From Candidatus Aenigmatarchaeota archaeon (GTDB lineage Archaea; Aenigmatarchaeota; Aenigmatarchaeia; QMZP01; JAFGSV01): DNA of 45,737 nucleotides. The DNA is taken from contig JAGGXP010000023.1 of NCBI GenBank assembly GCA_021163005.1, positions 1 to 45,737 on the forward strand. Reading direction: 5' to 3'. The notes under the pieces are model-generated. The model was given only the letters and a program-made list of their open reading frames with translations, searched no databases and had not been told where the DNA came from. Shown one piece after another: positions 1 through 28,466 of the stretch. Position numbers and translations under genes: made by a program. The stretch's first letter is position 1. Each line of letters starts with the position of its first letter.

Positions 1-60
1 GCGCCAGCGTACTTTCCGCTGAAGTCTGCAGGTGCTTAGTCCGCGCCAGCGTACTTTCCG
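1..60 (-). repeat. 18-bp direct repeat pair inside the tRNA-Pro intron
   Basis: GCGCCAGCGTACTTTCCG (plus strand) occurs at 1-18 and 43-60, a 42-bp period. Its reverse complement is the identical string at 1829-1846 in the tRNA-Tyr intron, and a 12/16 match lies at 2933-2948 in the tRNA-Asp intron. All copies have the same orientation relative to their host tRNA. Confidence 0.9.
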
Positions 61-97
61 TTGACGCTTTAGTCCGCTTGCTTGGGCTAAAGGGTCA
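1..97 (-). other. T-loop intron of tRNA-Pro (partial)
   Basis: Begins after TTCAA of the T-loop. In sense orientation it opens with TGACCCTTTAG, a hairpin closed by CTAAAGCG, and then the 18-nt string CGGAAAGTACGCTGGCGC at 60-43, repeated identically at 18-1. The same 18-mer, in the same sense orientation, lies in the tRNA-Tyr T-loop intron. No coding sequence is visible. The intron continues beyond the window, so its total length is unknown. Confidence 0.75.
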
Positions 98-240
98 TTG
101 AACTCCTGAAGGTGCTTCATGAAGCAGCTTTCTCAGGTCTGGGACTCCCGAAGCCCCGATGCTAGGCCAAGCTACACCACGGTCCCGTGTAGGTCTATAT
201 TAGCATTCAACAATATAAATTTGAACTGCTGATAGATGTA

Positions 241-248
241 TTTATAAA
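241..248 (+). promoter_or_regulatory. TATA box for the membrane protein gene at 288
   Basis: TTTATAAA, the archaeal box A consensus, lies 40-47 bp upstream of the GTG start. A purine-rich GAGGT element (276-280) precedes the start, so a short 5' leader with a ribosome binding site is likely. Confidence 0.55.
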
Positions 249-287
249 TTTAAGAGACAATAAGAAACCACTGATGAGGTTGATACT

Positions 288-1625
288 GTGAAGAGGATTG
301 CTGTTTTCACACTGCTGGCTTTTTTGCTCGTGTCAGGGTTTGCTGCAGCCCAGCAGGTCAGCATTGACGTGGCTCCTCAGGAGATGAAGGTTGAGCCGTT
401 CCATCTCGCGCGTTTTATAGCCACAGTGAGCAGCAGCGAAACCGAGGGAGGCATATACCTCTTTGTCACCGGCTCCCCGTCGCACTGGATAAACATGGGC
501 ACATCATACATAGACCTTCCTGCCAGAAAGCCTGTGGACGTGCTTGTGGAGTTTTACCCCAATGACAAGCCAGGGACTTATTATTACACATTCTATGCTC
601 AGCTCACGGAGAGTCCGGAAACAGCGCAAAGCCAGACAGTCAAACTCGTGGTAAGCAGCGGCGAAGACATCTTCGTTAAAAGCCACTCCATTGAGAAGCA
701 CGGCAGGAGCATCGACATGCAGCTGGGCCTGCTGTCCGAAAAGAAGGACGGCGTGACAGTTGACTACTCAATCGTAAACAGTGCAGGAACCACAGTGGCT
801 ACATACACGAGAACATATTTTGTTGAAGGCGCTGAGAACGTCAGCCAGACGATAGAGCTCAGCGACGACATGGTCGCAGACACATACACTGCAGTGATAA
901 AGGTGAAAGGAACGGACTATGAATTCAGTAAGTCATTTGACATTGAGCCTGTAAGAAGGATAGTGAAAAGCGAGGAAGAGGTATCAGGTCTCCTTTATGA
1001 TGAGCACAGGATAAGCATATCCAATGATGGCAACGTGGTTGAAAAGGGCTACGTGGTGTCTTCAAACGTTCCCACAGGATTCCTTGTGTTCTCTCATGAA
1101 CCTGACGAGTGCAGCGGCGGAAAATGCGTCTGGAGTGTCGAAAAGCTCAATCCGGACGAGGATGTGAACATAGTTTACAGGGTGGAGTACTGGCCGCTGT
1201 TCGCCGAGGGGCTTATGATAGCGGTGCTTCTTGGCGTCTTCGTGTTTTTCGCGCGGAGCAGGATGGGCACGCCCAGGATAACAAAGACCATAACCCACGG
1301 AAAGGACGGCTACACAGCTGTCATAGAGATAAGGAACCCGTCAAGAAAGATAACCAATGTTGTTGTCAGGGACGAGGTTTCCCCGCTGTTCAGGCTGGAG
1401 GACGCATTCGAGACTCTCAAGCCTGCTGTCAAGCACCACGAAAGCAGCACAGAGCTTGTATGGTCGCTGCCGGCAATAGAGCCGGGTGATCACAGGATAA
1501 TCCACTACAGGCTCAGGCCTGTTGTCAATGGAGATCTCAAGGTTCCCAAGGCCTATATGAGATACGCAACAGCAGACGGAAAGAAGATGAGAGCCGAGAG
1601 CAGGGAACTTAATCTCGCCGCCTGA
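288..1625 (+). CDS. secreted/membrane-anchored protein with Ig-like domains
   Basis: A 445-residue protein with GTG start. Residues 1-21 form a signal peptide (KR then a hydrophobic core ending FAAAQQ). The extracellular part (about 22-300) is beta-rich, of the kind found in NEW3/CARDB-like archaeal surface proteins, with a CSGGKC pair near residue 275 that could form a disulfide. A single transmembrane helix spans about 303-322 (GLMIAVLLGVFVFFARSR). A second beta-rich domain (325-440, DUF11-like appearance: VVVRDEVSP, PAIEPGDHRIIHY) follows, predicted cytoplasmic by the positive-inside rule, which is unusual for such a fold. The gene is divergent from tRNA-Pro and followed by tRNA-Tyr. No specific function is recognised; a cell-envelope structural or adhesion role is inferred. 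Confidence 0.7.
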   Translation: MKRIAVFTLLAFLLVSGFAAAQQVSIDVAPQEMKVEPFHLARFIATVSSSETEGGIYLFVTGSPSHWINMGTSYIDLPARKPVDVLVEFYPNDKPGTYYYTFYAQLTESPETAQSQTVKLVVSSGEDIFVKSHSIEKHGRSIDMQLGLLSEKKDGVTVDYSIVNSAGTTVATYTRTYFVEGAENVSQTIELSDDMVADTYTAVIKVKGTDYEFSKSFDIEPVRRIVKSEEEVSGLLYDEHRISISNDGNVVEKGYVVSSNVPTGFLVFSHEPDECSGGKCVWSVEKLNPDEDVNIVYRVEYWPLFAEGLMIAVLLGVFVFFARSRMGTPRITKTITHGKDGYTAVIEIRNPSRKITNVVVRDEVSPLFRLEDAFETLKPAVKHHESSTELVWSLPAIEPGDHRIIHYRLRPVVNGDLKVPKAYMRYATADGKKMRAESRELNLAA

Positions 1626-1664
1626 GAAGTTTTTTAAGGTTTCTGCGTCATATTCTATTACAAT

Positions 1665-1943
1665 CCCGAGGTAGCTCAGACTGGCTAGAGCGATCGGCTG
1701 TAGACGGGCACACCGTGATATATGCACGGTCTTATGAGTGTGTTTGTTGGACGCAGTCGCTCGAAAGAGACCGATAGGTCGGGAGTTCAAGAACCCTTTT
1801 GCGCAGGCATACGCACAAAAGCGTTCCACGGAAAGTACGCTGGCGCAGATTAACGGTCTGCAAGCGCCAAAATACGCTTCCGCCAAAGCGGAGGCAACGC
1901 GCAGGGAAAACGTCAAAGGGTTGGACAAATCTCCCTCTCGGGA
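1665..1943 (+). tRNA. tRNA-Tyr (anticodon GTA) with two introns
   Basis: Exons 1665-1703, 1770-1790 and 1929-1943 join into a 75-nt tRNA: acceptor CCCGAGG/TCTCGGG with the archaeal Tyr C1-G72 pair and A73, anticodon stem ATCGG/CCGAT, loop CTGTAGA, T-arm GGGAG-TTCAAAT-CTCCC. The first intron (66 nt, canonical 37/38) has a BHB with CTGT/AAAG (one mismatch), bulges AGA/AGA and an outer CGGGC/GCTCG helix. The second intron (138 nt) sits in the T-loop at 58/59 with an exact BHB: GTTC/GGAC central helix, bulges AAG and AAA, and an AACCC/GGGTT intron helix. Splicing there restores a standard 7-nt T-loop. Confidence 0.92.
1791..1928 (+). other. T-loop intron of tRNA-Tyr (138 nt)
   Basis: Opens with GAACCCTTTTGCG, a hairpin with GCATAC in the loop closed by CAAAAGCG, then TTCCA and the 18-mer CGGAAAGTACGCTGGCGC at 1829-1846. 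GGCGC of the 18-mer can pair with GCGCC at about 1863-1867. A further hairpin TCCGC-CAAA-GCGGA follows, and AAAGGGTT at the end pairs with the AACCCTTT start. This layout suggests a compact folded RNA; no coding sequence is seen. Confidence 0.8.
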
Positions 1944-1967
1944 TTTCTTTATTTTTTATGGGAGCAC

Positions 1968-2603
1968 TCACATGCTTTTTATGATGTCCTCGGCTTCCCT
2001 GAGGTTATCTATCACGAAGTCGGCCCTCTTCAGGTCTTCCCTGCCGACGGTACTCGTGAGGGCTATGCATATCATGCCGGCGCTTTTGGCTGATTCGACA
2101 CCAAGAGGAGCGTTGTCTATTGCGATGCATTCACCGGGCTTTACGCCAAGACCTCCGGCGCACTTGAGATAGGGTTCAGGGTCAGGCTTTGGCTTCCTTG
2201 TCTCATCGCCCGTGGTTATGTGATTGAATAAGGAAAGCTCGCGGGGAGAAAGGTGCTGGTCGACGACCTCTCTGGGGCTTCCTGTGGCGAGGCCTATCCT
2301 GTAGTTGAGCCTGCGAAGCTTGTTTATGAGCATCTTGGCCTCCTTTCGCATCTTGAGACCTTCGGAAAGCTTTCTGTAGATGAGCCTTTTTCTCTCAATG
2401 ATGTCGTTAATCTCAGACTCATCGGGATTTGAATCAGAAAGCAGCCTGCTTGTTATTGGAAAGACATGCCCGCCCTCAAGCATGAACAGTTCCCGCGGCT
2501 CCAGCTTCTTCCTGCCTTCAAGAGCTTTCGAGAAAGATTCGTAGTGCATCTGCATGTTGTCCATGAGCGTGCCGTCGAAGTCAAAAATAACTGCTTTTAT
2601 CAT
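1968..2603 (-). CDS. HAD-superfamily hydrolase (beta-phosphoglucomutase/phosphatase-like)
   Basis: A 211-residue protein from ATG at 2603 (MIKAVIFDFDGTL); a TTG three codons upstream is a less likely start. HAD motif I is DFDGT (nucleophile D8, acid/base D10), motif II is the T/S in GLATGSP, motif III the Lys in ETRKPKPDPEPY, and motif IV IAIDNAPLGVESA. The alpha-helical cap between motifs I and II (about 15-85) matches the beta-PGM/phosphoglycolate phosphatase subfamily, whose members act on small phosphorylated metabolites; the substrate cannot be read from sequence. The gene is divergent from 5S rRNA and appears to share a palindromic TATA box with it. Confidence 0.85.
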   Translation of the reverse strand: MIKAVIFDFDGTLMDNMQMHYESFSKALEGRKKLEPRELFMLEGGHVFPITSRLLSDSNPDESEINDIIERKRLIYRKLSEGLKMRKEAKMLINKLRRLNYRIGLATGSPREVVDQHLSPRELSLFNHITTGDETRKPKPDPEPYLKCAGGLGVKPGECIAIDNAPLGVESAKSAGMICIALTSTVGREDLKRADFVIDNLREAEDIIKSM

Positions 2604-2635
2604 AAAGACCAATAGAAAAACATGACAGGAATACC

Positions 2636-2643
2636 TTTATAAA
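2636..2643. promoter_or_regulatory. palindromic TATA box between 5S rRNA and the HAD hydrolase gene
   Basis: TTTATAAA is its own reverse complement. It lies 21-28 bp upstream of the 5S rRNA 5' end (about 2664) and 33-40 bp upstream of the HAD start on the other strand, so one TBP site could serve both directions. No second TATA-like element is seen in the short gap. Confidence 0.5.
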
Positions 2644-2663
2644 TGAAACCGGCAATATAATAT

Positions 2664-2773
2664 CGGCGGCCAAAGGGGAGAGGTTTACCCGTTCCCATTT
2701 CGAACACGGCAGTCAAGCTCTCCGACGGTCTGGGTGGTACTTGCTTCGGTTGGGAACCCCAGATCGCTGCCAA
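2664..2773 (+). rRNA. rrf: 5S ribosomal RNA
   Basis: About 110 nt. The terminal helix pairs GGCGGC (2665-2670) with GCTGCC (2766-2771). The conserved loop region reads CCCGTTCCCATTTCGAACAC followed by GGCAGTCAAGCTCTCC, the universal 5S core. The gene stands alone, without 16S or 23S nearby, and is followed by tRNA-Asp. Confidence 0.93.
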
Positions 2774-2834
2774 TTCTTATAGTTCTTCCGGAAAGAAAAG
2801 CTTTAAAAGATGTTTTGCATTAAATAATCCACAA

Positions 2835-3073
2835 GCCTCGATGGTGTAGTGGCCTAGCATATGGCCCTGTCACGGCCATGACCCGGGTTCAAAGGCACCC
2901 TTTTCCATAAGCATACATGGAAAAGCGCGCTCCGGAAAATACGTTAACAACAAATGAACGGTGCGCAGAGGAGCCGTGTCCGGAAGGGGTATCCATTCCG
3001 CAGGGTTTTGGATGGCAACCTTCTGGAAGAAACTGGCAGACTCTAAAATGTGCTGGAAATCCCGGTCGGGGCG
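2835..3073 (+). tRNA. tRNA-Asp (anticodon GTC) with a T-loop intron
   Basis: Exons 2835-2893 and 3060-3073 give a 73-nt tRNA: acceptor GCCTCGA/TCGGGGC, anticodon stem TGGCC/GGCCA, loop CTGTCAC, T-arm CCGGG-TTCAAAT-CCCGG, discriminator G73. The only intron (166 nt) lies at 59/60. Its BHB is exact: TTCA/TGGA central helix, bulges AAG and AAT, GCAC/GTGC intron helix. There is no anticodon-loop intron. A TATA-like CTTTAAAAG lies about 30 bp upstream, and TTTTT follows the 3' end at 3076-3080. Confidence 0.93.
2894..3059 (+). other. T-loop intron of tRNA-Asp (166 nt)
   Basis: Starts GGCACCCTTTTCCAT, with a perfect hairpin CTTTTCCAT/ATGGAAAAG whose loop contains GCATAC, then AAAGCGCGCTC and CGGAAAATACG. 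This is the same order of elements as in the Tyr and Pro T-loop introns. The later half (GGTGCGC, GGGGTATCCATTCC) is not obviously shared. Confidence 0.8.
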
Positions 3074-3150
3074 CTTTTTATCTTTCCTTAAGCTTTGGAA
3101 AGTGCCAGCTACTGTAAAGCTTATTTAATTCAAATCAGAAAAATAAATCA

Positions 3151-3444
3151 ATGAACGGGAATTTTGGCCGTATCCTTTGGTATGTCTTTGCGACGACCAG
3201 AGGCGGACCCACACGCGTAAGGATAATGGATCTTCTTGACAAGCGGCCCTATAACATGCACCAGATAAGCAAGGAGCTCAGGCTTGACTACAAGACCGTG
3301 CAGCACCACATCAGGGTCTTGGAGGAGAACAGGGTCGTAACAGCCGAGGAGAAGAAGTACGGCACAATTTACTTCCCGTCAGGGCTCTTCGAAAATGTAA
3401 AAGATATATTTAATGAAATAAAGAATAAGGTAGGTGAGAAGTGA
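3151..3444 (+). CDS. winged-helix (ArsR-like) transcriptional regulator
   Basis: A 97-residue single-domain protein. RIMDLLDKRPYNMHQISKEL (about 25-44) and LDYKTVQHHIRVLEENRVV form a winged helix-turn-helix, and KKYGTIYFPS is the wing. The C-terminal helix (FENVKDIFNEIKNKVGEK) probably mediates dimerisation. ATG at 3151 follows an AT-rich TATTTAATT element by about 25 bp, suggesting a leaderless transcript. It overlaps the next gene (TGATG), so the two are co-transcribed; a DNA-binding protein paired with a small membrane protein suggests a membrane-linked sensor unit. The ligand is unknown. Confidence 0.8.
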   Translation: MNGNFGRILWYVFATTRGGPTRVRIMDLLDKRPYNMHQISKELRLDYKTVQHHIRVLEENRVVTAEEKKYGTIYFPSGLFENVKDIFNEIKNKVGEK

Positions 3445-3722
3445 TGTTCGATGAAATTGTTCTTGGGCTGAGTGGCTTCAACATAGTAATGGTGATTGCA
3501 CTTATAGCTGTCTATGCAAACAACTTCAGGCTCGTGAGGTCTAAAATGACATTCGGTATGCTTATCTTCGCGTCTATGTTCCTTCTTGAAAACATTTTCA
3601 GCCTTTACTTCTACAGCTCGCTTCTGGCTCAGGGAATAACATCCATCACGACATTCAACCTTGTCGTGAAATTCCTTGAAATGCTGGGTTTGCTGACGCT
3701 GCTCTATGTGACATGGAAATGA
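3444..3722 (+). CDS. small three-helix membrane protein
   Basis: A 92-residue protein starting at the ATG that overlaps the regulator's TGA, preceded by GGTGAG as ribosome binding site. Three hydrophobic segments are visible: NIVMVIALIAVYA (about 10-25), MLIFASMFLLENIFSLYFY (about 38-58) and LVVKFLEMLGLLTLLYV (about 74-90). Charged residues RLVRSK lie in the first loop. No catalytic motif is seen. Tight coupling to the upstream wHTH gene is the only functional clue. Confidence 0.75.
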   Translation: MFDEIVLGLSGFNIVMVIALIAVYANNFRLVRSKMTFGMLIFASMFLLENIFSLYFYSSLLAQGITSITTFNLVVKFLEMLGLLTLLYVTWK

Positions 3723-3769
3723 GTGGGTAGAGATTTGGGCATAACACAGGCAGGAAGTCGGGAAAAGTC

Positions 3770-3777
3770 TTTATAAA
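3770..3777 (+). promoter_or_regulatory. TATA box for the small Cys-rich protein
   Basis: TTTATAAA lies 21-28 bp before the ATG at 3798, which places transcription start at or next to the start codon (leaderless). Confidence 0.6.
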
Positions 3778-3797
3778 GGGTTGACCAACCTTCTAAC

Positions 3798-3926
3798 ATG
3801 ACTTGCATAGCTTGTGGTTCCGAAAGCGAGTTCCGCTGCACGATGAAGGGCATGACAGTGTGCCTCTGCTCCGAGCATGTCCAGAAAGATGTGCACTATG
3901 ATGCAATGGAACGCGTCCTCAACTGA
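3798..3926 (+). CDS. 42-residue Cys-rich (zinc-finger-like) protein
   Basis: Reads MTCIACGSESEFRC, then TMKGMTVCLCSEHVQKD and a short acidic tail ending RVLN. CxxC at 3-6, a further Cys at 14, and CLCSEH (Cys22, Cys24, His27) could bind one zinc. Support for a real gene comes from the promoter at the right distance, a strong rho-independent-like hairpin with a T-run downstream, and codon use like its neighbours. No family is recognised; a small nucleic-acid- or protein-binding role is possible. Confidence 0.65.
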   Translation: MTCIACGSESEFRCTMKGMTVCLCSEHVQKDVHYDAMERVLN

Positions 3927-3949
3927 AATTCCTCCAGATGACCCGGGTC

Positions 3950-3990
3950 TGCCAGGCGCCCCATCCAGGCAGGCCTGGGCGCATTTTTTT
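3950..3990 (+). terminator. hairpin plus T-run terminator
   Basis: GCGCCC (3956-3961) pairs with GGGCGC (3977-3982), followed by ATTTTTTT. Inner CCAGGC/GCCTGG pairing gives an alternative fold. It would separate the small Cys-rich gene from tRNA-Lys. Confidence 0.6.
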
Positions 3991-4242
3991 AACTTATTTA
4001 AAAACTAAAGTCTACAAATTCTTTTCAATGGGCCCGTAGCTCAGTCTGGCTAGAGCACCAGACGAGTGTGTTGCACGTCGTGCAGCACCTCAGGTGAAGC
4101 TTTTAATGTCATTAAAAGCGTGTTTAGGACCTTCAGAAATCCCGTGCAATGAACACGGCACTGCAAGAGGTTCCGATGACAGAATAAACCTGGGTGTCGC
4201 GGGTTCGAAGGCTCAAGGGGGCTTCGGCAGCTTACACGTGCA

Positions 4243-4421
4243 TGCCCCCTTAAAGCATTATTCCCCGCTTAAGAGGGCCAACGGCAACGGACAGCAACGC
4301 AAGATGACGGCTAACGCAGGATGAGCAAAGCCGTCCCGAACAGGAACGCAATCCGCCTGCATGCACAGGATGGATAAAGCAGGCTTTAGGCACATCTGCC
4401 CCCTTAAAGCATTATTCCCCG
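4243..4421 (+). repeat. 25-bp direct repeat within the tRNA-Lys intron
   Basis: Two identical 25-bp copies (TGCCCCCTTAAAGCATTATT then CCCCG) at 4243-4267 and 4397-4421, 154 bp apart. Each is followed by a purine-rich stretch able to pair with CCCC (AAGAGGG and AAAAGGG), so each copy probably forms its own hairpin. Confidence 0.85.
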
Positions 4422-4648
4422 TTAAAAGGGAAGAGAAGATGGGGAAAGGGAATGGTGCACAGGTTCCCCAGTAACAATGAAGAAGGAAAGGGGAATCAGG
4501 ACAGCAGCGGAAAGCCGCAAAGGTCGTGCAGGTCGCGCGGCTCGAACACTACGAACAGGAACGCACACCGCCTGCATGAACATAACGGACAAAGAATAAT
4601 CGAACAGGAACGCAATATGACGACTTGAACAGAATGAACAAGTCGTCT
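4337..4648 (+). repeat. CGAACAGGAACGCA repeat family, three copies in the tRNA-Lys intron
   Basis: CGAACAGGAACGCA starts at 4337, 4552 and 4601. The first two continue with (A/C)(T/A)CCGCCTGCATG and then GGATAAA or GGACAAA. The same unit occurs twice in inverted orientation at 28487-28575. The third copy carries the GACGAC...GTCGTC stem also present in the 28.5-kb element. Confidence 0.8.
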
Positions 4649-4809
4649 TTAAAAGGTATGCACAAAGCAGGCTTTAAGCCGCATTTAAAAGCTGTCCATG
4701 AGCTGGAAATCCTGCCGGGCCCATTTAAGCTTTTGGCGCAAGCGGAAGTGCCGTAAAAGGTTAACTTTAAATAGGCACGAAGCTGTTATAATTGGATTGA
4801 AGTGATAAC

Positions 4810-5202
4810 ATGCAAAGCTCTCACATAGTCAAAGTGGATTCAAAAGGCCGCGTGCTTATCCCCGTTGACATGAGAGCTGATATGAGCATAGCTGACGGAA
4901 CGCACATACTTGTCACACGCGACGAGAGCAACGGACACCTCAGGATGACACCCATACCCAAGGGAAGCATGGCAGAGGTAAGCATGAAGATATGTGAATT
5001 CAGTCTCATGGCATCTGTGGCGGACGCGCTTTCAGGGAATTCCTTCAACATAATAATGAGCGAAAGCAAGCGCATTGACGAAAAAAACACAGAGATAAGA
5101 ATGCTTGTAGACCTTTCGGAAGCTTCCAGGAATATGGACGCGCTCAGGGAAATATTATCCAACATAGAAGGTGTAAATGCCGTTGATGTTGCTGCAAAAT
5201 AG
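4810..5202 (+). CDS. AbrB/SpoVT-type DNA-binding protein with ACT-like C-terminal domain
   Basis: A 130-residue protein. Residues 4-45 (HIVKVDSKGRVLIPVDMRAD) are the swapped-hairpin SpoVT/AbrB fold. Residues about 60-130 have a beta-alpha-beta pattern ending ALREILSNIEGVNAVDV, typical of ACT/RAM-like regulatory domains that bind small ligands. ATG at 4810 follows a CTTTAAATA TATA element (about 4765) and a GGATTGAAGTGAT leader. It lies just upstream of the RNA polymerase operon but has its own promoter, with another TATA box between them. The ligand and targets are unknown. Confidence 0.75.
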   Translation: MQSSHIVKVDSKGRVLIPVDMRADMSIADGTHILVTRDESNGHLRMTPIPKGSMAEVSMKICEFSLMASVADALSGNSFNIIMSESKRIDEKNTEIRMLVDLSEASRNMDALREILSNIEGVNAVDVAAK

Positions 5203-5240
5203 GCAGTTAATTGGCCTTTTTGGTCTGAAAAAGCGAAACA

Positions 5241-5250
5241 TTTATATATA
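5241..5250 (+). promoter_or_regulatory. TATA box of the RNA polymerase operon
   Basis: TTTATATATA, preceded by purine-rich GCGAAACA as a BRE-like element. Transcription would start near 5273-5276, giving a leader of about 50 nt before rpoH with the Shine-Dalgarno GAGGGTGA at 5309-5316. Confidence 0.6.
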
Positions 5251-5323
5251 TGCTATTAATTTATTAGATAATTCATCTATTTACAATGTTATTGGGGATT
5301 TGCAGACGAGAGGGTGATTCCAT

Positions 5324-5551
5324 ATAGATATAACAAAACATGAGCTTGTGCCGAAGCATGAAATTCTTAGCGATAAAGAAAAGAAAGAAGTCATGGCCAA
5401 GTTCGATGTTAATGAATCACAACTTCCTAAGATAAGTATTTCTGACCCTGTCATGGAAACCATGGATGCAAGTCCCGGAGACATTGTGAGGATAACGAGG
5501 AACTCCAAAACAGCGGGAAAGGCCGTATATTACAGGGTTGTTGTGAAGTAG
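5324..5551 (+). CDS. rpoH: RNA polymerase subunit H (Rpo5), possible AUA start
   Basis: RpoH is the archaeal counterpart of the C-terminal domain of eukaryotic Rpb5. The conserved signature DITKHELVPKHEILS begins right after an ATA codon at 5324. The strong Shine-Dalgarno GAGGGTGA lies 7 nt before this ATA, an in-frame TGA sits at 5315-5317, and no ATG, GTG or TTG occurs before the GTG at 5348, which would remove the family-conserved DITKHEL. The best start is therefore ATA at 5324 (75 residues); a GTG start gives 67. SDPVMETMDASPGDIVRI and YYRVVVK complete the fold. It is followed 1 nt later by rpoB. Confidence 0.88.
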   Translation: MDITKHELVPKHEILSDKEKKEVMAKFDVNESQLPKISISDPVMETMDASPGDIVRITRNSKTAGKAVYYRVVVK

Positions 5552-5552
5552 T

Positions 5553-8500
5553 ATGGTTAGTGATGCAAAGTCCAAAAGCGCAGATATGGTTATGAACTTC
5601 ATCTCACTCTTCAAAGCAATAGAAAAAGAAAAGGGGTGGATGAACTTCCAGATAAATTCTTTCGACAAATTTGTGGATACAGGTCTTCAGAGCATAATAA
5701 ACGAGATAGGCACTGTGGATCTTGTCCCGGAGATGGGCGACGTCAAGCTGTCTTTCGGGAAGGTTGAGGTCGGTGACCCCTACCTGATAGAGGCAGACGG
5801 TTACAAGAGGTCCAAGGCTACCAAGAGTCCGCTTTATCCGAATGAATGCAGAATAAGGAACCTTACATATGCAGCTCCCATATGGGTGAACATAACACCT
5901 ATAGTGAACGGCGTACAGGAAAAGACGGAGAAGGTTCACATAGGCGATCTTCCTGTCATGGTGGGCTCCAAGCTGTGCTCGACATACGGGGTTTCAGAAA
6001 AGGAGCTTGTTGAGGCCGGTGAGGATCCAAGGGATGTCAAGGGATATTTCATTGTCAACGGCACTGAGAGGGCGCTCGTGCTCATAGAGGAAATCGCGGG
6101 GAACAAGCCTGTGTTTGAAAAGGGCGACGATGTCGTGACAGTCAGGGTGAATTCTGAGAGGAGCGGCTTCAAGCAGAGGCACCTCATAGAGAAAAGGCCT
6201 GAAGGGACACTCACGATATCGTTTGCCAACATAAGGCGCCTTTCGATTGTAACGCTTCTGAAAGCGCTTGGCCTGTCAACGGACAAGGACATATGCGACA
6301 ATGTGAGCAGCGACCCAAAAGTGCTCAACGACCTGTATGTTTCTCTTTACGAGTCAGAGCCCATAGACGAGGACGAGGCCATCGACTTCATAGGAAAGAA
6401 GCTCAAGGTCACAGAGGATTACAGAACCGAGAGAGTCAACCAGATACTTGACAGGTACCTGCTTCCGCACATAGGGCAGGAAAAGAAGGACAGGATGGCA
6501 AAGGCCCTTTACCTGGCAAGAATCATGCACAAGGTCATAGCTGTTTCGCAGGGCACAATACCGCAGGACGACATTGACCATTACAGCAACAAGAGGCTGC
6601 TCATGGGGGGCGAACTTCTCTCACAGCTGTTCAGGTCGGTTCTCCTTGGAAGGTGGGGCCTGATAGCAAAGATGACATACAACTACCAGAAGCTCACGAA
6701 GAGAGGACAGCAGCCGTCAGTTCAGGGAATAGTGGAAGCCAATGCTGTCACAAAGCAGATTCTTTCATCACTCGCAACAGGAAACTGGATAGGCGGAAGG
6801 ACAGGAGTCAGCCAGAGGCTTGACAGGAGCTGCTACGTAAAGTCCGTTTCCCACATCAGAAGCGTCGTATCACCGCTCACTACAACGCAGGAACATTTCA
6901 GCGCCAGGGAAATACATCCCACTGAATGGGGCAGGCTCTGCCCGGCAGAAACGCCTGAAGGAAGCTCGATAGGTCTGAGAAAGCACCTTGCCCTGCTGAC
7001 GGAAATAACGCCGGGGCTCACAGATGCTGGCAACGAGGCGCTTCTCAAGGCAGTCAAGGCGGAAATGGAAAAGTGCACCACAAAAGAGGTCAAGCATCCT
7101 TATGATGTCTACTTCAACGGCGACTTCATAGGAAAGACATCAGCTCCCGGAAAGGTTACTGAAAACATAAGGAAAAAGAGAAGGGCAGGGCTCATTAACG
7201 AGCAGCTCAACATATCCAAGCGTGACGAGTTCGCAGAGATAAGGATAAACACGGATACAGGAAGGGCGAGGAGACCGCTGCTTATACTTGAAAACGGGAA
7301 GCACAAGCTCAAGAGCGAGATAGTGCAGAAGATTATGAAAGGTGAGATAGACTCATCATACCTGCTCATACACGGCATAATGGAATATCTTGACGCAGAG
7401 GAGGAAGAGAATGCATATATAGCGCTCAAGCCTGAAAACATAACGCATGAGCACACGCATCTTGAGGTAACACCGTTCGCAATGCTCGGCCTGTCGGCAA
7501 GCCTGATACCCTACCCCGGGTACAACAGGGGCGACAGGATAAATTACGGCGCCAAGATGGTGGGCCAGTCCATAGGCATACCATCCACAAATTACCTTGT
7601 CAGGACAGACACTAAATTCAATACACTTGTTTACCCGGAAGCGCCGCTGATAGACACACACACATCGCAGGTCATGAGTGACTATCCCGGCGGCCAGAAT
7701 GTCGTTGTAGCTGTTATGAGCTGGGATGGGTACAACCTCAACGATGCCATAGTCATGAACAAATCCTCTGTTGAAAGGGGTCTTCTGAGGTCCATATACT
7801 ACAGGACATACGAAACCGAGAAGAAGCGCTACTGGGGCGGCCAGGAGGACGAGATAGGCGTGCCGCAGCCTGGCATCAAGGGTCACAGGGGCGAGGAGGC
7901 GTACAAGGACCTCGGACCGGATGGCATAATAAACCCGGAGACGCCTGTAGGATCAGATTCAGTTCTTGTGGGCAAGACGTCCCCGCTCAGGTTCCTTTCA
8001 GGCGAGGACTTCGCAGCAGGCGTGGAAAACCAGAGGGAGACATCCATAACAGTGAGGCACGGTGAAGGAGGGCTCGCTGACAAGATACTCATCTCAGAAA
8101 GCACGAACGGAAACCACATAATAAAGATAAGAGTCCGTGAGAGAAGAATCCCTGAAATAGGCGACAAATTCGCTTCGAGGCACGGCCAGAAGGGCGTAGT
8201 GAGCCTGATGGTGCCGCACGAAGACATGCCGTTCACGTCAAGGGGAGTGGTTCCTGACATAATATTCAACCCTCACGGCGTTCCCAGCAGGATGACCATG
8301 GGACAGCTGCTTGAGCTCATAGCTGGCAAAACCAAAGCCATGAGCGGCAAGGATATAAAGGGAACGGCATTCGAGCACATGAAGGAGAATGATATAAGGG
8401 ATCTTCTCCTCAAATCCGGCTTCCGCGACGACGGCAAGGAAATACTGTACGACGGAAGGACAGGAAAGGCGTACGAAGTGATGATATTCACAGGCATAAG

Positions 8501-8885
8501 CTTCTACCTCAAGCTGGACCACATGGTTGCCAACAAGATACACGCGAGGTCCCGTGGCCCTGTCACGCTACTCACGAGGCAGCCAACTGAAGGAAGGGCG
8601 AAGAGGGGCGGTCTGAGGCTCGGTGAAATGGAACAGCAGTGCCTTGTTGCGCACGGCTCAGCGCTGACACTTAAGGAGAGATTCGATTCCGACAGGGCCG
8701 TAATACCGTTCTGCAAGGAATGCGGAGTGATAGCAGTTCACGACAAGGCCAACAACAGGAGCTATTGCCCGCTTTGCAAAGACAGCAAGATAAAATGGGT
8801 GGAAACATCCTACGCATTCAAGCTTCTGCTGGACGAGATAATGTCCATGTCGATATATCCAAAACTTGAAATAGGTGATGCATGA
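5553..8885 (+). CDS. rpoB: RNA polymerase subunit B (Rpo2), unsplit
   Basis: A 1110-residue second-largest subunit. The unsplit form contrasts with the B'/B'' split of many methanogens and halophiles. Recognisable blocks include CPAETPEGSSIGL (about 465), DGYNLNDAIVMN in the hybrid-binding region, RHGQKGVVSLMVP near the active site, and LTRQPTEGRAKRGGLRLGEM near the C-terminus. A zinc ribbon, CKECGV...CPLC, lies at about 1052-1074. It starts 1 nt after rpoH and overlaps rpoA1 (GCATGATG), so translation is coupled. No intein or frameshift is seen. Confidence 0.97.
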   Translation: MVSDAKSKSADMVMNFISLFKAIEKEKGWMNFQINSFDKFVDTGLQSIINEIGTVDLVPEMGDVKLSFGKVEVGDPYLIEADGYKRSKATKSPLYPNECRIRNLTYAAPIWVNITPIVNGVQEKTEKVHIGDLPVMVGSKLCSTYGVSEKELVEAGEDPRDVKGYFIVNGTERALVLIEEIAGNKPVFEKGDDVVTVRVNSERSGFKQRHLIEKRPEGTLTISFANIRRLSIVTLLKALGLSTDKDICDNVSSDPKVLNDLYVSLYESEPIDEDEAIDFIGKKLKVTEDYRTERVNQILDRYLLPHIGQEKKDRMAKALYLARIMHKVIAVSQGTIPQDDIDHYSNKRLLMGGELLSQLFRSVLLGRWGLIAKMTYNYQKLTKRGQQPSVQGIVEANAVTKQILSSLATGNWIGGRTGVSQRLDRSCYVKSVSHIRSVVSPLTTTQEHFSAREIHPTEWGRLCPAETPEGSSIGLRKHLALLTEITPGLTDAGNEALLKAVKAEMEKCTTKEVKHPYDVYFNGDFIGKTSAPGKVTENIRKKRRAGLINEQLNISKRDEFAEIRINTDTGRARRPLLILENGKHKLKSEIVQKIMKGEIDSSYLLIHGIMEYLDAEEEENAYIALKPENITHEHTHLEVTPFAMLGLSASLIPYPGYNRGDRINYGAKMVGQSIGIPSTNYLVRTDTKFNTLVYPEAPLIDTHTSQVMSDYPGGQNVVVAVMSWDGYNLNDAIVMNKSSVERGLLRSIYYRTYETEKKRYWGGQEDEIGVPQPGIKGHRGEEAYKDLGPDGIINPETPVGSDSVLVGKTSPLRFLSGEDFAAGVENQRETSITVRHGEGGLADKILISESTNGNHIIKIRVRERRIPEIGDKFASRHGQKGVVSLMVPHEDMPFTSRGVVPDIIFNPHGVPSRMTMGQLLELIAGKTKAMSGKDIKGTAFEHMKENDIRDLLLKSGFRDDGKEILYDGRTGKAYEVMIFTGISFYLKLDHMVANKIHARSRGPVTLLTRQPTEGRAKRGGLRLGEMEQQCLVAHGSALTLKERFDSDRAVIPFCKECGVIAVHDKANNRSYCPLCKDSKIKWVETSYAFKLLLDEIMSMSIYPKLEIGDA

Positions 8886-11365
8886 TGGTGTCGAGGATAA
8901 AAGGCATAGAGTTCAAAATGCTTGACCCGGAGATGATAAAGTCATTGGCAGCAGTGAGAATAGTGACTTCAGACCTGTATGATGTCGACGGCTATCCTGT
9001 GGAAGGCGGCGTCATGGACCCGAGACTTGGCGTCATTGACCCCGGCCTTCACTGCAGGACCTGCGGCTCAGGCATAGGAGACTGTCCCGGCCATTTCGGA
9101 TACCTGGAGCTGGCCAAGCCCGTCATAAACATACTTTACACAAAAGCCATATACAAGCTTCTCAAAATAACATGCAGCAAATGCGGAAGGGTTCTTTCGA
9201 AACCCGAGGACAACAAGAAAAGCAAGGATCTCAGCCGCAACCCGCCGGGCAAGTGCCCCTACTGTGGTCAGGAGCAGGGAAAGATAAAGTTCCTCAAGCC
9301 CAATACTTTTTACGAAGACAAGGAAGAGATGTCTCCCGAGCACATCAGGGAATGGTTTGAAAGAATACCTGATGATGATCTCAAGAGGATAAACTTCAAG
9401 GGCGGGAGGCCTGAAAGCATGATACTTACTCTGTTCCCGGTTTCTCCTGTCACGACAAGGCCAAGCATAACACTTGAAAGCGGGGAGAAGTCCGAAGACG
9501 ACCTGACACACAAGCTCGTGGACATCGTCAGGATAAACCAGTCGCTGAGGGAGAACATGGACATAGGCGCCCCCGACTTCATAATCAACGACCTGTGGGA
9601 GCTTCTCCAGTACCATGTAACCACATACTTCGACAACGAGCTCACGGGAATACCGCAGGCAAGGCACAGGAGCGGGAGGCCTCTCAAAGGCATGATACAA
9701 AGGATGAAAGGCAAGGAAGGCAGGATAAGGGGCAACCTTCTCGGCAAGAGGGTGAACTTCTCTGCCAGGACTGTCATATCCCCCGACCCGAGGATATCGA
9801 TAAACGAGGTCGGCGTTCCTGATATTGTCGCAAAGGAACTCACGATAGAGGTTCCTGTCACGAAGCTCAGCATGAACGAGGTCAAGGAAGCCATAAAAAG
9901 GGACAGGGCTAACTACGCGAAGAGACCTGACGGCAGGAGAATAAAGATTTCGTCTGAAAACAAGGAAGAGATACTCGAAAACATAGCAGAAGGGTGGGTG
10001 ATTGACAGGCAGCTCAAGGACGGTGACATGGTGCTTTTCAACAGGCAGCCGTCTCTTCACAGACCGTCAATAATGGCTCATAAGGTAAGGGTCATGCCCC
10101 ACAAGACCTTCAGGATATCGCCTCAGGTGTGCCCGCCGTACAACGCAGACTTCGACGGCGATGAGATGAACCTTCATGCCCTCCAGACAGAGGAAGCCAG
10201 AGTTGAGGCTGCTGAGCTGATAAATGTAAAGAACAATCTCATATCGCCGAGATTCGGCGGTCCGCTGATAGGGCTTGACCTCGACCAGATATCCGGTGTT
10301 TACCTTCTTACGCGCTCGAAAAAGAAGTTCAACAGGAAAGAAACGAGTGCCATTCTGAGCAAAGCGGGTATAAAGATTGACCTGCCCGACGGCGTGGCCG
10401 AGTTCACAGGAAAGGAGATATTCAGCCTGCTCCTGCCAAAGGAACTCAACATGGAGTTCAAGTCCACATCCTGCAGGCAGTGCGACAGCTGCATAAAAGA
10501 GAAATGCGAATACGACTCATGGGTGAAGATAAAGAACGGAAAGCTGCTCACAGGTACAATAGACGCGGCAGCTGTTGGCGCATTCAAGGGCAAGATAATA
10601 AGCAGGATGCACGGCCTTGTCGATACAGACACCATCAGGAAATTCATAGACAATGCAGGAAGGCTGGGAGTCGCCTTCATGGGGCAGCGCGGATTCTCAA
10701 TAGGCATATCAGACCTTGACCTCAAGGACGACATAATGGAGCAGATAGGCAAAAGGATAGTGAAGGCCGAAAAGGAATCGAACGCGCTTATTGAGAAGTA
10801 CAACAACAAGGAGCTCGAGATTCTGCCCGGCATGACGGCATCGGAATCGCTTGAGACCCGCATACTCAACGTGCTCGCTGAAGGGCTGAACTCAACATCC
10901 GAGATAGTGAAGGAGCACGTCAAGGACAGCGACTTCATAGTCATGGTAAACTCAGGTTCAAAGGGCTCGCTTGTAAACCTCACACAGATGGCAGCGTGCG
11001 TCGGGCAGGAAGCCATACTTGGACAGAGGATAAAGAGAGGCTACTACAACAGAACGCTGCCGCACTTCAGGCAGGGTGACCTTTCAGCAGCAGGACACGG
11101 GTTCGTCAGAAAGGGGTTCAAGCAGGAACTCAGCCCGACAGAGCTGTTCTGGAACATAATGAACGGCCGTGAGGGACTCATGGACAAGTCACTGAGGACA
11201 AGGAAAAGCGGTTACATGCAGAGAAGGCTTGTCAACGCGCTTCAGGACCTTCGCGTGACCCCGAGCCTCGCTGTCAAGAACTCGAACGGTCACATAATAC
11301 AGTTCGTTGCGGGTGAGGACGGTGTGGACCCGTCAAAGTCCGAATGGGGGGATGTGCATGAATGA
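8885..11365 (+). CDS. rpoA1: RNA polymerase subunit A' (Rpo1N)
   Basis: The N-terminal part of the largest subunit, about 826 residues. The zinc-binding clamp [14 protein letters not shown] lies near residues 58-71 and CSKCG...CPYC near 98-125. The catalytic metal-binding motif [10 protein letters not shown] sits at about 419-428. [18 protein letters not shown] and [13 protein letters not shown] are the bridge and active-site surroundings. An extra [12 protein letters not shown] cysteine cluster (near 530) is present. The second ATG (8885) was chosen because GGTGAT gives better spacing. Its end overlaps rpoA2, the usual archaeal split point. Confidence 0.96.
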
Positions 11366-26445: not shown

Positions 26446-27273
26446 ATGAAAATTGCATACGTGGCGGCGGCTGTCGCGCTATTGCTAGTTATCGGGGGGT
26501 TTGCGGTTTCATTCCAGCCCCAGAAGCCTTTCGTGAAGGCCTTCTACGATTCAGCGCCAAGGGACAATGGCACAATAGATGCGGAAAAGCTCATCCGAAC
26601 ACTTTCCGACGGAAACGCCAACACATACAACTTCCTGATGAGGAGACCGTCTGATTTCGAATCCCTCAAAGAGCTGCTTCCACTCGCTGCTGCCAAAGAC
26701 ATAGACATCTGGGTAACGCTCATACCGCCATCCGAGCTGAGCCCGGAGCAGAGGAACGACCCTGCATACACGGACTACAATGCATGGGCAGAAAAGCTGG
26801 CGAAGCTTTCGCTTGAGCATGAAAACCTGAAGGCATGGAGCATAGACAACGTCGTGATTGACAGCACGTTCTTCACACCGCAGTACCTCGGGTCCATGCT
26901 CGGAAAGGCGAGGGATATAAGCCCGAAGCTCATGTTCATACCGGTCGTCTATTACCAGAACGTGATTTCAGACGGCTTTGCCGAGCAGGCAAAATATTTC
27001 GACGGGGTGCAGTTTTACTACATGCACTTCCCCGGCGGGCCGCCAGCGGAGTCTGATATACTGATGACCCAGCTGCAGGAGCTGAGAAAGAGATTCGGCG
27101 GCATAGTCGTGCTTGGCTTATACGCGACTCCGTGGTCTCAGGAGTTCCCGACAAGCGCTGACTATGTGCAGCAGCTTATAAACCTTGCCAGGCAACATAC
27201 AGACGGTGTGATGATTTACACACTGAATCCGGGAGCGGAAAAATTCGAGGTCATAAGGCAGGAATTCGCATGA
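26446..27273 (+). CDS. secreted or membrane-anchored TIM-barrel-like protein
   Basis: A 275-residue protein. Residues 5-22 are a hydrophobic signal/anchor segment (YVAAAVALLLVIGGFAVSF). The rest repeats beta-alpha units: IDIWVTLIPPSEL, LKAWSIDNVVID, LMFIPVVYYQN, FDGVQFYYMHFPG, GIVVLGLYATPW and DGVMIYTLNPG, as expected for a (beta/alpha)8 barrel related to glycoside-hydrolase-like domains. Candidate acidic residues are the Asp of SIDNVVID and FDGVQFYY, but no catalytic pair is proven. It overlaps endA by 4 nt (ATGA), making an unexpected operon of a secreted protein and a tRNA-splicing enzyme. Confidence 0.7.
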   Translation: MKIAYVAAAVALLLVIGGFAVSFQPQKPFVKAFYDSAPRDNGTIDAEKLIRTLSDGNANTYNFLMRRPSDFESLKELLPLAAAKDIDIWVTLIPPSELSPEQRNDPAYTDYNAWAEKLAKLSLEHENLKAWSIDNVVIDSTFFTPQYLGSMLGKARDISPKLMFIPVVYYQNVISDGFAEQAKYFDGVQFYYMHFPGGPPAESDILMTQLQELRKRFGGIVVLGLYATPWSQEFPTSADYVQQLINLARQHTDGVMIYTLNPGAEKFEVIRQEFA

Positions 27274-28466
27274 TTGAGATAAGGTTTGACCCCAAAAAGG
27301 GCATATGGGCAGAGAATGAGGACGCAGACAGGCTGAGGAACAACTCCTTCGGAAGACAGGAAAAGGACAAGCTGTGGCTCATGCCGGAAGAGGCGCTCTA
27401 CATTCTCGACCTGATGAACGGCAGGGCTGTGCGTGGCAAAAAGCAGGCGGGATTTGAAGACATCGTGTCCGCTTATGCAGCGAAAGACCCGAGGATACTG
27501 CTAAAATACAATGCCTACAGGGACTGGCGCGACCGCGGCCTTATAGTCAAAAGGGTTGATGACGGGATTAAGGGCAGCAGCAACAGAGCCGGGCATGTGA
27601 AGAAATATCCGTCAAAGGACATGAAGGTGGCAAAAGGCAGGGGGAAAATCCTTTGGGACGATGACTCGGCCATGGGCATCTACACAGCCGCCGACGCCAG
27701 GACGCTGTATTCGGATTGGTGGCTCGGCCAGATAGGCGTTTACAAGCAGGATAGGGGCAGCGTCCTCAAGCTCAATTTCTTCGAGGTCGTGCTGCTGTCT
27801 AAACATTTCGGCTTTAAGGTGAGGAATGCCAGGACGGGAAAGAGCATCACCGCGAAAAGGATAATGGATGAGATATCCAAGCGCAGGGAATTTGCCCGTT
27901 CAATGTACCAGGCCTACGAGGACTGGAGGATGCGCGGCTACATAGTCAAGACCGGCTTTAAGTTCGGCACCCACTTCAGGATTTACTTTCCAGAGGCATC
28001 GCCTCTCAGGGAAACGTCCAACGGAAAATGGATCCACTCCAAGCATGTCCTTCACATATTTCCCAAGGAAGAGAAGTTGCTGATTTCAGAATGGGCGAGG
28101 GCCGTGCGCGTTGCTCATGGTGTCAGAAAGACTTTCATACTGGGTGTGCCGAAGATAACGAAAAAGGATTGTGTGGACTACCCGGCAGACTTTGTGGCGT
28201 TCAGGCGCAAGAAGAAGGGCAAGGACTGGGTGAGGGAGGCGCCGCCGAAGGACAGGCCGAGGTATCTTCTTGCAGACCTGAGCGAGGAAGAGCACATAGG
28301 CGGCATTGAGCTGGCATCGCTTCTCGCCAAGGCAGGGGGCATGAATCTCAATCTCATACTTTCCATAACAGACAGGGAAACTGCCATAACCTACTACGCG
28401 CTCAACAAGATAAAGATACAGGGCGCGAAGTTCGACTACTACGAGATAGAGTGGCTGAGGCCCTGA
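27270..28466 (+). CDS. endA: tRNA-splicing endonuclease, multi-unit (epsilon-type) form
   Basis: A 398-residue EndA, more than twice the usual one-unit length. The catalytic unit lies at about 205-310: GYIVKTGFKFGTHFRIYF, then WIHSKHVLHIF and RAVRVAHGVRKTF, giving the triad Y239, H256 and K287. An N-terminal EndA-like unit (about 35-100, AYRDWRDRGLIVK) echoes the pre-catalytic YEDWRMRGYIVK, and a C-terminal unit (about 325-398, RYLLADLSEEEHIGG, ALNKI) lacks the triad. This matches the three-unit epsilon2 enzyme of ARMAN archaea, which is known to cut relaxed BHB motifs. Its presence fits the many non-canonical tRNA introns in this window. Confidence 0.9.
   Translation: MIEIRFDPKKGIWAENEDADRLRNNSFGRQEKDKLWLMPEEALYILDLMNGRAVRGKKQAGFEDIVSAYAAKDPRILLKYNAYRDWRDRGLIVKRVDDGIKGSSNRAGHVKKYPSKDMKVAKGRGKILWDDDSAMGIYTAADARTLYSDWWLGQIGVYKQDRGSVLKLNFFEVVLLSKHFGFKVRNARTGKSITAKRIMDEISKRREFARSMYQAYEDWRMRGYIVKTGFKFGTHFRIYFPEASPLRETSNGKWIHSKHVLHIFPKEEKLLISEWARAVRVAHGVRKTFILGVPKITKKDCVDYPADFVAFRRKKKGKDWVREAPPKDRPRYLLADLSEEEHIGGIELASLLAKAGGMNLNLILSITDRETAITYYALNKIKIQGAKFDYYEIEWLRP

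Follow-up and report, generated by a model that had tools for sequence, protein, structure and literature searches.

Bulge-helix-bulge introns in the T-loops of tRNA genes of a Candidatus Aenigmatarchaeota genome and their probable spread through stable-RNA genes

The four tRNA genes lying within the first 4,723 nt of contig JAGGXP010000023.1 of a Candidatus Aenigmatarchaeota archaeon are all interrupted in the T-loop, which raises the question of how so many tRNA genes came to be broken in the same part of the molecule. The stretch analyzed here, called the window throughout, is that entire contig (C14; 45,737 nt), belonging to a 945-kb genome in 43 contigs that is 91% complete and is placed in the phylum by an RpoB identity of 83% to the nearest named metagenome-assembled genomes (MAGs). 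In our reading, to which we assign a probability of roughly 0.85, the interruptions are bulge-helix-bulge (BHB) introns from two proliferating families, which are spliced by an epsilon-type endonuclease encoded in the window and are spreading through the stable-RNA genes. That is, the endonuclease would cut the T-loop introns from pre-tRNA, and the exons would presumably be rejoined by the usual archaeal RNA ligase. Most T-loop introns would descend from two families multiplied within this genome, one intron end fitting almost every tRNA, the T-arm being nearly invariant. In addition, family I would have entered D-loops, anticodon loops and hairpin loops of 16S and 23S rRNA, and would have spread over the phylum. 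The copying itself may proceed by reverse splicing followed by recombination, or by gene conversion between T-arms.

A preliminary description of the window had claimed a T-loop intron in all four of its tRNA genes (Pro, Tyr, Asp and Lys), and this stands, each of the four introns forming a BHB with a complete (4/4) central helix. Specifically, the tRNA-Tyr(GTA) gene (1665..1943, + strand) has two introns, one of 66 nt at position 37/38 and one of 138 nt in the T-loop (1791..1928, +; position 58/59, family I), the latter with the central helix GTTC/GGAC. In the tRNA-Asp(GTC) gene (2835..3073, +), which ARAGORN calls as Asp only once the intron is removed, a 166-nt T-loop intron of family I (2894..3059, +) is inserted at 59/60 with the helix TTCA/TGGA, and the spliced tRNA is a 97% gap-free match to the intronless gene of a sister genome, Zod_Metabat.1300 (hereafter G003). 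The tRNA-Lys gene (4030..4723, +; anticodon probably TTT), which many relatives also have upstream of rpoB, combines an intron of about 120 nt in the anticodon arm with a 500-nt T-loop intron of family II (4210..4709, +; 59/60, helix TTCG/TGGA), which contains the family II core twice. The exact 4-bp central helices proposed earlier for Tyr, Asp and Lys are the ones confirmed here. As to tRNA-Pro(CGG), its 5' part occupies 1..186 on the - strand, where the acceptor, D and anticodon arms are read directly, and the rest of the gene lies on contig C2, whose overlap with the window is 60 nt and whose start holds the far junction and the missing 3' exon. Two introns interrupt its T-arm: one of 29 nt at 53/54 (103..131, -), whose removal restores the T-stem CTGAG/CTCAG, and one of 119 nt in total at 58/59 (5' part at 1..97, -, with the family I core inside), for which joining C2 gives the helix GTTC/GGGC (4/4). 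Between them lies a micro-exon of 5 nt, TTCAA (98..102, -), and an exon of this size between two introns implies an order of splicing. Once the gene is joined and both T-arm introns are removed, a normal 75-nt tRNA results, gap-free against the intronless G003 gene and equal to it in length. The anatomy given at first was incomplete, in that it lacked the second T-arm intron of Pro and the anticodon-arm introns of Tyr and Lys, and the notion of one common site holds for the T-loop but not for a single register, Asp and Lys being split at 59/60 and Tyr and Pro at 58/59.

Genes of this kind largely escape standard tools. ARAGORN detected no tRNA in the window, the Rfam tRNA model gave no match over threshold there, and genome-wide the same model recovers few tRNAs; T-loop splitting is responsible for these failures, and as a consequence the numbers of tRNAs counted in such genomes may be incorrect. 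A grammar-based scan of the window (acceptor stem, T-stem, GTTCRA) does recover Tyr, Asp and Lys. The genome was covered by searches and by the stretches around their matches, the tRNA genes being located by the Rfam tRNA model, a D-arm pattern and BLAST with sister-genome exons, with anticodons that are provisional for several genes. T-loop introns were found in 30 of the 41 tRNA genes so located (about three quarters), a count well above the four first noted, which supports a T-loop bias of the whole genome and not one local to the window. The 30 comprise 28 introns whose two junctions share a contig, together with those of Pro(CGG) and of a truncated Ser(GCT). The complete ones measure 31-500 nt (median 115) and are inserted at 59/60 in 25 cases and at 58/59 in three (Tyr, Ile(GAT) and Pro(GGG)), Pro(CGG) being a fourth case of the latter register. 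A single 58/59 register for all was considered and rejected, since Arg(TCG), Arg(GCG), Cys and others regain a loop of normal form only if they are spliced at 59/60. A split at 53/54 is present in three further tRNA genes, Gly, Pro(TGG) and Glu(TTC), and only Phe and Arg(CCT) are intron-free among the 41. Judged by extra exon length, the intron load amounts to at least about 60 in 41 genes, a lower estimate of the same order as the highest number published, that of Pyrobaculum calidifontis with 71 introns in 46 tRNA genes (PMC8450103).

The assignment of the inserts to the BHB class is based on their junctions and on the tRNAs that their removal restores. All four central pairs form in 23 complete T-loop introns and three of the four in the other five, against chance values for 4-mers within the same introns of 0.031 (4/4) and 0.20 (at least 3/4), a contrast slightly flattered by a scoring that took the better of two registers per intron. 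Moreover, none of the 28 genes is detected by ARAGORN unspliced and 25 are after removal of the T-loop intron, versus 12% for random deletions of equal length. In about 18 of the 25 detections the isotype is as assigned, the others differing because further introns confuse them. Six spliced tRNAs compared with uninterrupted G003 orthologues match at 84-99% with a gap-free junction, and the T-stem and acceptor pairs are intact around every T-loop junction. The inserts therefore have what characterizes BHB tRNA introns, namely helix and bulges, a restored canonical tRNA and an encoded splicing endonuclease; from these sequences we infer that they are excised in the cell. No Rfam match to a group I or II self-splicing core was found in the window or in four element-bearing loci (relaxed threshold). 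The hallmark of an integrative element, a repeated tRNA 3' end with an integrase insert, was likewise not found, the inserts being of 31-500 nt and the junctions read once.

The same results make it very improbable that the split genes are pseudogenes or misassemblies. Such an origin could appeal to contig ends inside introns (C14, C2, C23, C24 and C22/C25), as repeats would give, but it does not account for spliced products that match orthologues, for intact T-stem and acceptor pairs at every junction, or for the same pattern in a complete chromosome (CP070804.1). In addition, intact copies of the four window isoacceptors, which would have spoken against the preliminary description, were not found by a Rfam tRNA model search of the 91% complete assembly. 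The contig ends in question are window position 1 and the starts or ends of C2, C22, C23, C24 and C25, and ends of this kind would be expected if shared repeats broke the assembly.

The suitability of the T-arm as an intron site appears to follow the rule of the anticodon arm. In canonical introns the outer helix is formed by the anticodon stem, some of the loop nucleotides pair with the intron, and cleavage occurs after the sixth loop nucleotide (37/38) (PMC4090602). At 59/60 the T-stem is the outer helix, nucleotides 54-57 pair with the intron, the bulges are of 3 nt and the cut falls after the sixth T-loop nucleotide. As a 5-bp T-stem with a 7-nt T-loop has the geometry of an anticodon arm, an intron at 59/60 forms a motif of the 37/38 type, a correspondence suggested by the sequences together with the published BHB geometry (PMC4090602). 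GTTCRA hardly varies, so that many tRNAs can take similar intron ends (TGGAAA, TGGGAA). In eukaryotic tRNA genes the T-loop is taken up by the internal B-box promoter, which archaea are not known to have, and for this reason the loop would be free to accept introns. Thermoproteales are known to have introns at 53/54 and 59/60, to carry several introns in one tRNA and to transpose them from one isoacceptor to another (PMC4090602). The published non-canonical introns at 53/54 and 59/60 share position and BHB motif with those described here but are scattered cases (PMC4090602), whereas this genome has 25 complete introns at 59/60.

The kinship of the introns argues that they multiplied. All-versus-all BLAST of the 28 complete introns gives clusters of 17 (family I) and 7 (family II) with four singletons; 71 of the 378 intron pairs are homologous at E<=1e-3, and 24 of the 28 introns fall in the two clusters. 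Near-identical introns are found in unrelated isoacceptors, Leu (C23) and Lys sharing 91% over 228 nt and Gly and Ser(CGA) 97% over 64 nt. A 22-mer of family II has 11 occurrences in the genome, ten of them in T-loop introns and one in a contig-edge piece that looks like it ends in a tRNA-Ala 3' exon. Family I is defined by a core consisting of CCCTTT, a variable hairpin and AAAGCG-YNNR-CGGAA, a motif that occurs 33 times in the genome and never in the reversed control. Its copies are located in T-loops, in D-loops (Gln(TTG), Leu), in anticodon introns (Val(GAC), Thr(TGT)) and in 16S and 23S rRNA. The three 16S copies have 4/4 BHB helices with 3-nt bulges, and their removal restores loops of normal length. 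Both rRNA genes, on contig C23 (stretch L261), are longer than their models: 16S spans 1798 nt (2411-4208) versus 1478 in the model, and 23S spans 4251 nt (4831-9081) versus 2987. Near the 900 loop, 16S has a fourth insert, which is not of the family I kind, and the 16S-23S spacer on the same contig holds a tRNA-Ala(TGC) split in both D-loop and T-loop. It is this side of the system, that is, the kinship of the introns, the rRNA copies and the endonuclease gene of the window, that the preliminary description had missed while recognizing the BHB T-loop introns correctly.

Family I is not confined to this genome, as 58 of the 156 genomes searched from the phylum contain its core, against none for the reversed control, and about 17 of the 20 core loci read across the phylum are in tRNA genes. 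The outer letters of YNNR pair in 65 of 69 cores (TA 36, CG 21, TG 8), those from the phylum search having been selected with Y at the first place and the last place free, and because of this pairing the YNNR part is likely structured. A Rfam search of the core matched no known family. The core is a concrete candidate for driving or marking mobility. We lean, by a small measure, towards a broader proposal, in which phylum-wide mobile BHB introns with a structured core (a CTTT..AAAG hairpin and CG-YNNR-CG with covarying Y and R) would copy themselves among tRNA and rRNA hairpin loops as an archaeal, protein-spliced counterpart of introners, tolerated by virtue of the epsilon endonuclease. Eukaryotic introners likewise comprise many similar introns from one proliferating family, but they are spliceosomal, whereas a protein endonuclease acts here; the comparison is an analogy, and no membership is claimed.

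As to the route of copying, two observations favour the RNA level: the ends of the introns fit each of their targets, and T-loops show no target duplication. A different possibility, which we consider doubtful, is that the inserts moved as DNA elements driven by an integrase or a transposase (similar to miniature inverted-repeat transposable elements) and favouring tRNA genes, with BHB splicing repairing the damage later. Family I cores do occur outside RNA genes, at C11:25530 in this genome and in 3 of the 20 loci elsewhere, so that mobility need not be RNA-based; integrase genes are present; Lys(CTT) and Ile(TAT) have repeats of a 15-nt tRNA 5' end, fused to the element, on their upstream side; and a case in Caldiarchaeum ties tRNA intron gain to a mobile element (PMC3293823). 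Against a spread at the DNA level stand the T-loop junctions, which are devoid of target duplications and at which the intron ends are complementary to the local exon at each target. Moreover, no Y1 transposase (PF01797) was found in the six family genomes, with a positive control and incomplete assemblies, and a mini-element of IS200/IS605 type was for this reason dropped as mobiliser. The repeats mentioned above consist, at Lys(CTT) on contig C3 (L267, about 560-740), of two tandem upstream copies of the first 15 nt of the tRNA with a family I element and, at Ile(TAT) near C29:17690-17950 (L266), of one such copy with the element, an arrangement that looks as if insertion had duplicated the tRNA 5' end. 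Of the non-tRNA cores in other genomes (L269, L272, L273), one lies apparently in a protein-coding stretch and two near or after reading-frame ends.

T-loop splitting is widespread among relatives, and its extent varies between close ones. In G003, among the tRNAs read, about 33 have an uninterrupted T-loop and 6 are split; these six (Tyr, Ile(TAT), Ser(GCT), Gly(GCC) and two Leu) are split in the present genome too, where about 19 further isoacceptors are split that are not in G003. In the complete chromosome CP070804.1, T-loop introns are present in 17 of 24 parsed tRNAs, a count that leaves out Tyr, whose T-arm parse is unreliable, and that includes Phe, intron-free here. At 37 loci near rpoB, from the phylum and neighbouring DPANN groups, a T-loop intron in which 3/4 or more of the BHB pairs form is present in 32 of 74 tRNAs. 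This distribution, together with the occurrence here of all six G003 introns, would suit T-loop introns that are ancestral, kept in this genome and lost in sisters such as G003, with gene conversion producing their resemblance. We hold this history to be unlikely, as near-identical introns in unrelated isoacceptors point to recent copying and Phe is split in CP070804.1 and not here. Some observations weigh against the reading of two multiplied BHB families. The preference for gain over loss rests on sister genomes, from which we infer the direction of change; five introns have only 3/4 central pairs; the MAG is fragmented, with 2 of the 30 T-loop introns cut by contig ends; and the family I cores outside RNA genes belong here as well.

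A benefit to the host has also been envisaged, in that T-loop introns would be kept because they disrupt the sites in the 3' half of tRNA genes to which integrases attach. This half is a usual attB site, and the idea of protection from integration is already published (Randau and Soll 2008, as cited in PMC4090602). It seems improbable for this genome, because it leaves introns of the same family in rRNA and D-loops unexplained. Integrase counts do not track intron load, genes of the phage-integrase family being present in five of the six family genomes with four matches here and five in a sister with few T-loop introns, and by themselves these counts speak neither for the idea nor decisively against it. 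Copying between genes, on the other hand, explains the pattern with no benefit to the host.

The enzyme expected to remove these introns is encoded at 27270..28466 (+) of the window, where a 398-aa epsilon2-type tRNA splicing endonuclease scores 297 bits to ARMAN-2 EndA (4fz2), with a near full-length alignment (query 14-398, chain 17-387) and three-unit homology. The equivalents of Y236, H251, K282, the specificity-loop residues Y160-K161, R275 and W384 are kept, the motifs being FRIY, WIHSKH, VRKTF and GVYK, and all six family genomes conserve the catalytic triad and GVYK. The protein has the known broad-specificity determinants of ARMAN-2, and a broad substrate range is predicted. Epsilon2 and (alpha-beta)2 enzymes are reported to remove relaxed-motif introns efficiently, with the T-loop among the sites (PMC6379350). 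The introns would be tolerated because such a broad-specificity endonuclease removes them. The enzyme resembles the epsilon2 endonuclease of ARMAN-2 (Micrarchaeum) in its three units and in the conserved triad and specificity-loop residues, but is accompanied by a conserved alpha-like paralogue without the catalytic lysine. The short gene of this paralogue, located at C1:4652-4924 in the present genome, is found in all six family genomes with the catalytic Lys replaced by Ala (AHSIRA or SHSIRA), and its product is probably inactive or auxiliary.

Transposition of tRNA introns in Thermoproteales has reportedly been described by Sugahara in 2008 and Fujishima in 2010. The situation there is similar in having multiple BHB introns per tRNA, non-canonical sites and similar introns across isoacceptors; it differs from the present one, which concerns a DPANN lineage with T-loop dominance, introns of up to 500 nt, a family shared with 16S and 23S rRNA and an epsilon instead of an (alpha-beta)2 endonuclease. 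BHB introns in archaeal rRNA are known as well (PMC4496867). Those in 16S and 23S of Thermoproteales and Aigarchaeota are likewise located in conserved hairpin loops, some of the present ones being at or near known loci (the GGATTAGAT loop), but the inserts described here are short, lack a homing endonuclease and are homologous to tRNA introns of the same genome. A literature search found no paper on the tRNA introns of this phylum, most subscription journals lying outside it. Within the literature searched, and as far as shown here, the T-loop dominance, the intron load in a DPANN genome, the presence of a single family in both tRNA and rRNA, the conserved core and the co-occurrence of an epsilon enzyme with a lysine-less paralogue are new. 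Introns spliced by protein appear capable of multiplying within a genome, and this genome makes the question of how BHB introns spread directly testable. On the practical side, introns in 16S can hide such organisms from primers.

Further repeats are found inside the introns. Within the tRNA-Lys T-loop intron, window positions 4288-4643 contain a 49-nt-spaced module (CGAACAGGAACGCA...GCATGCACAGGATGGA), which recurs upstream or downstream of other tRNA genes (contigs C2, C9, C11, C13 and C42) and in at least one intergenic place, and the introns resemble mosaics assembled from several repeat modules. Lastly, the 5S rRNA of the window (2662-2775) is separate from the 16S-23S operon and is located between the tRNA genes for Tyr and Asp.

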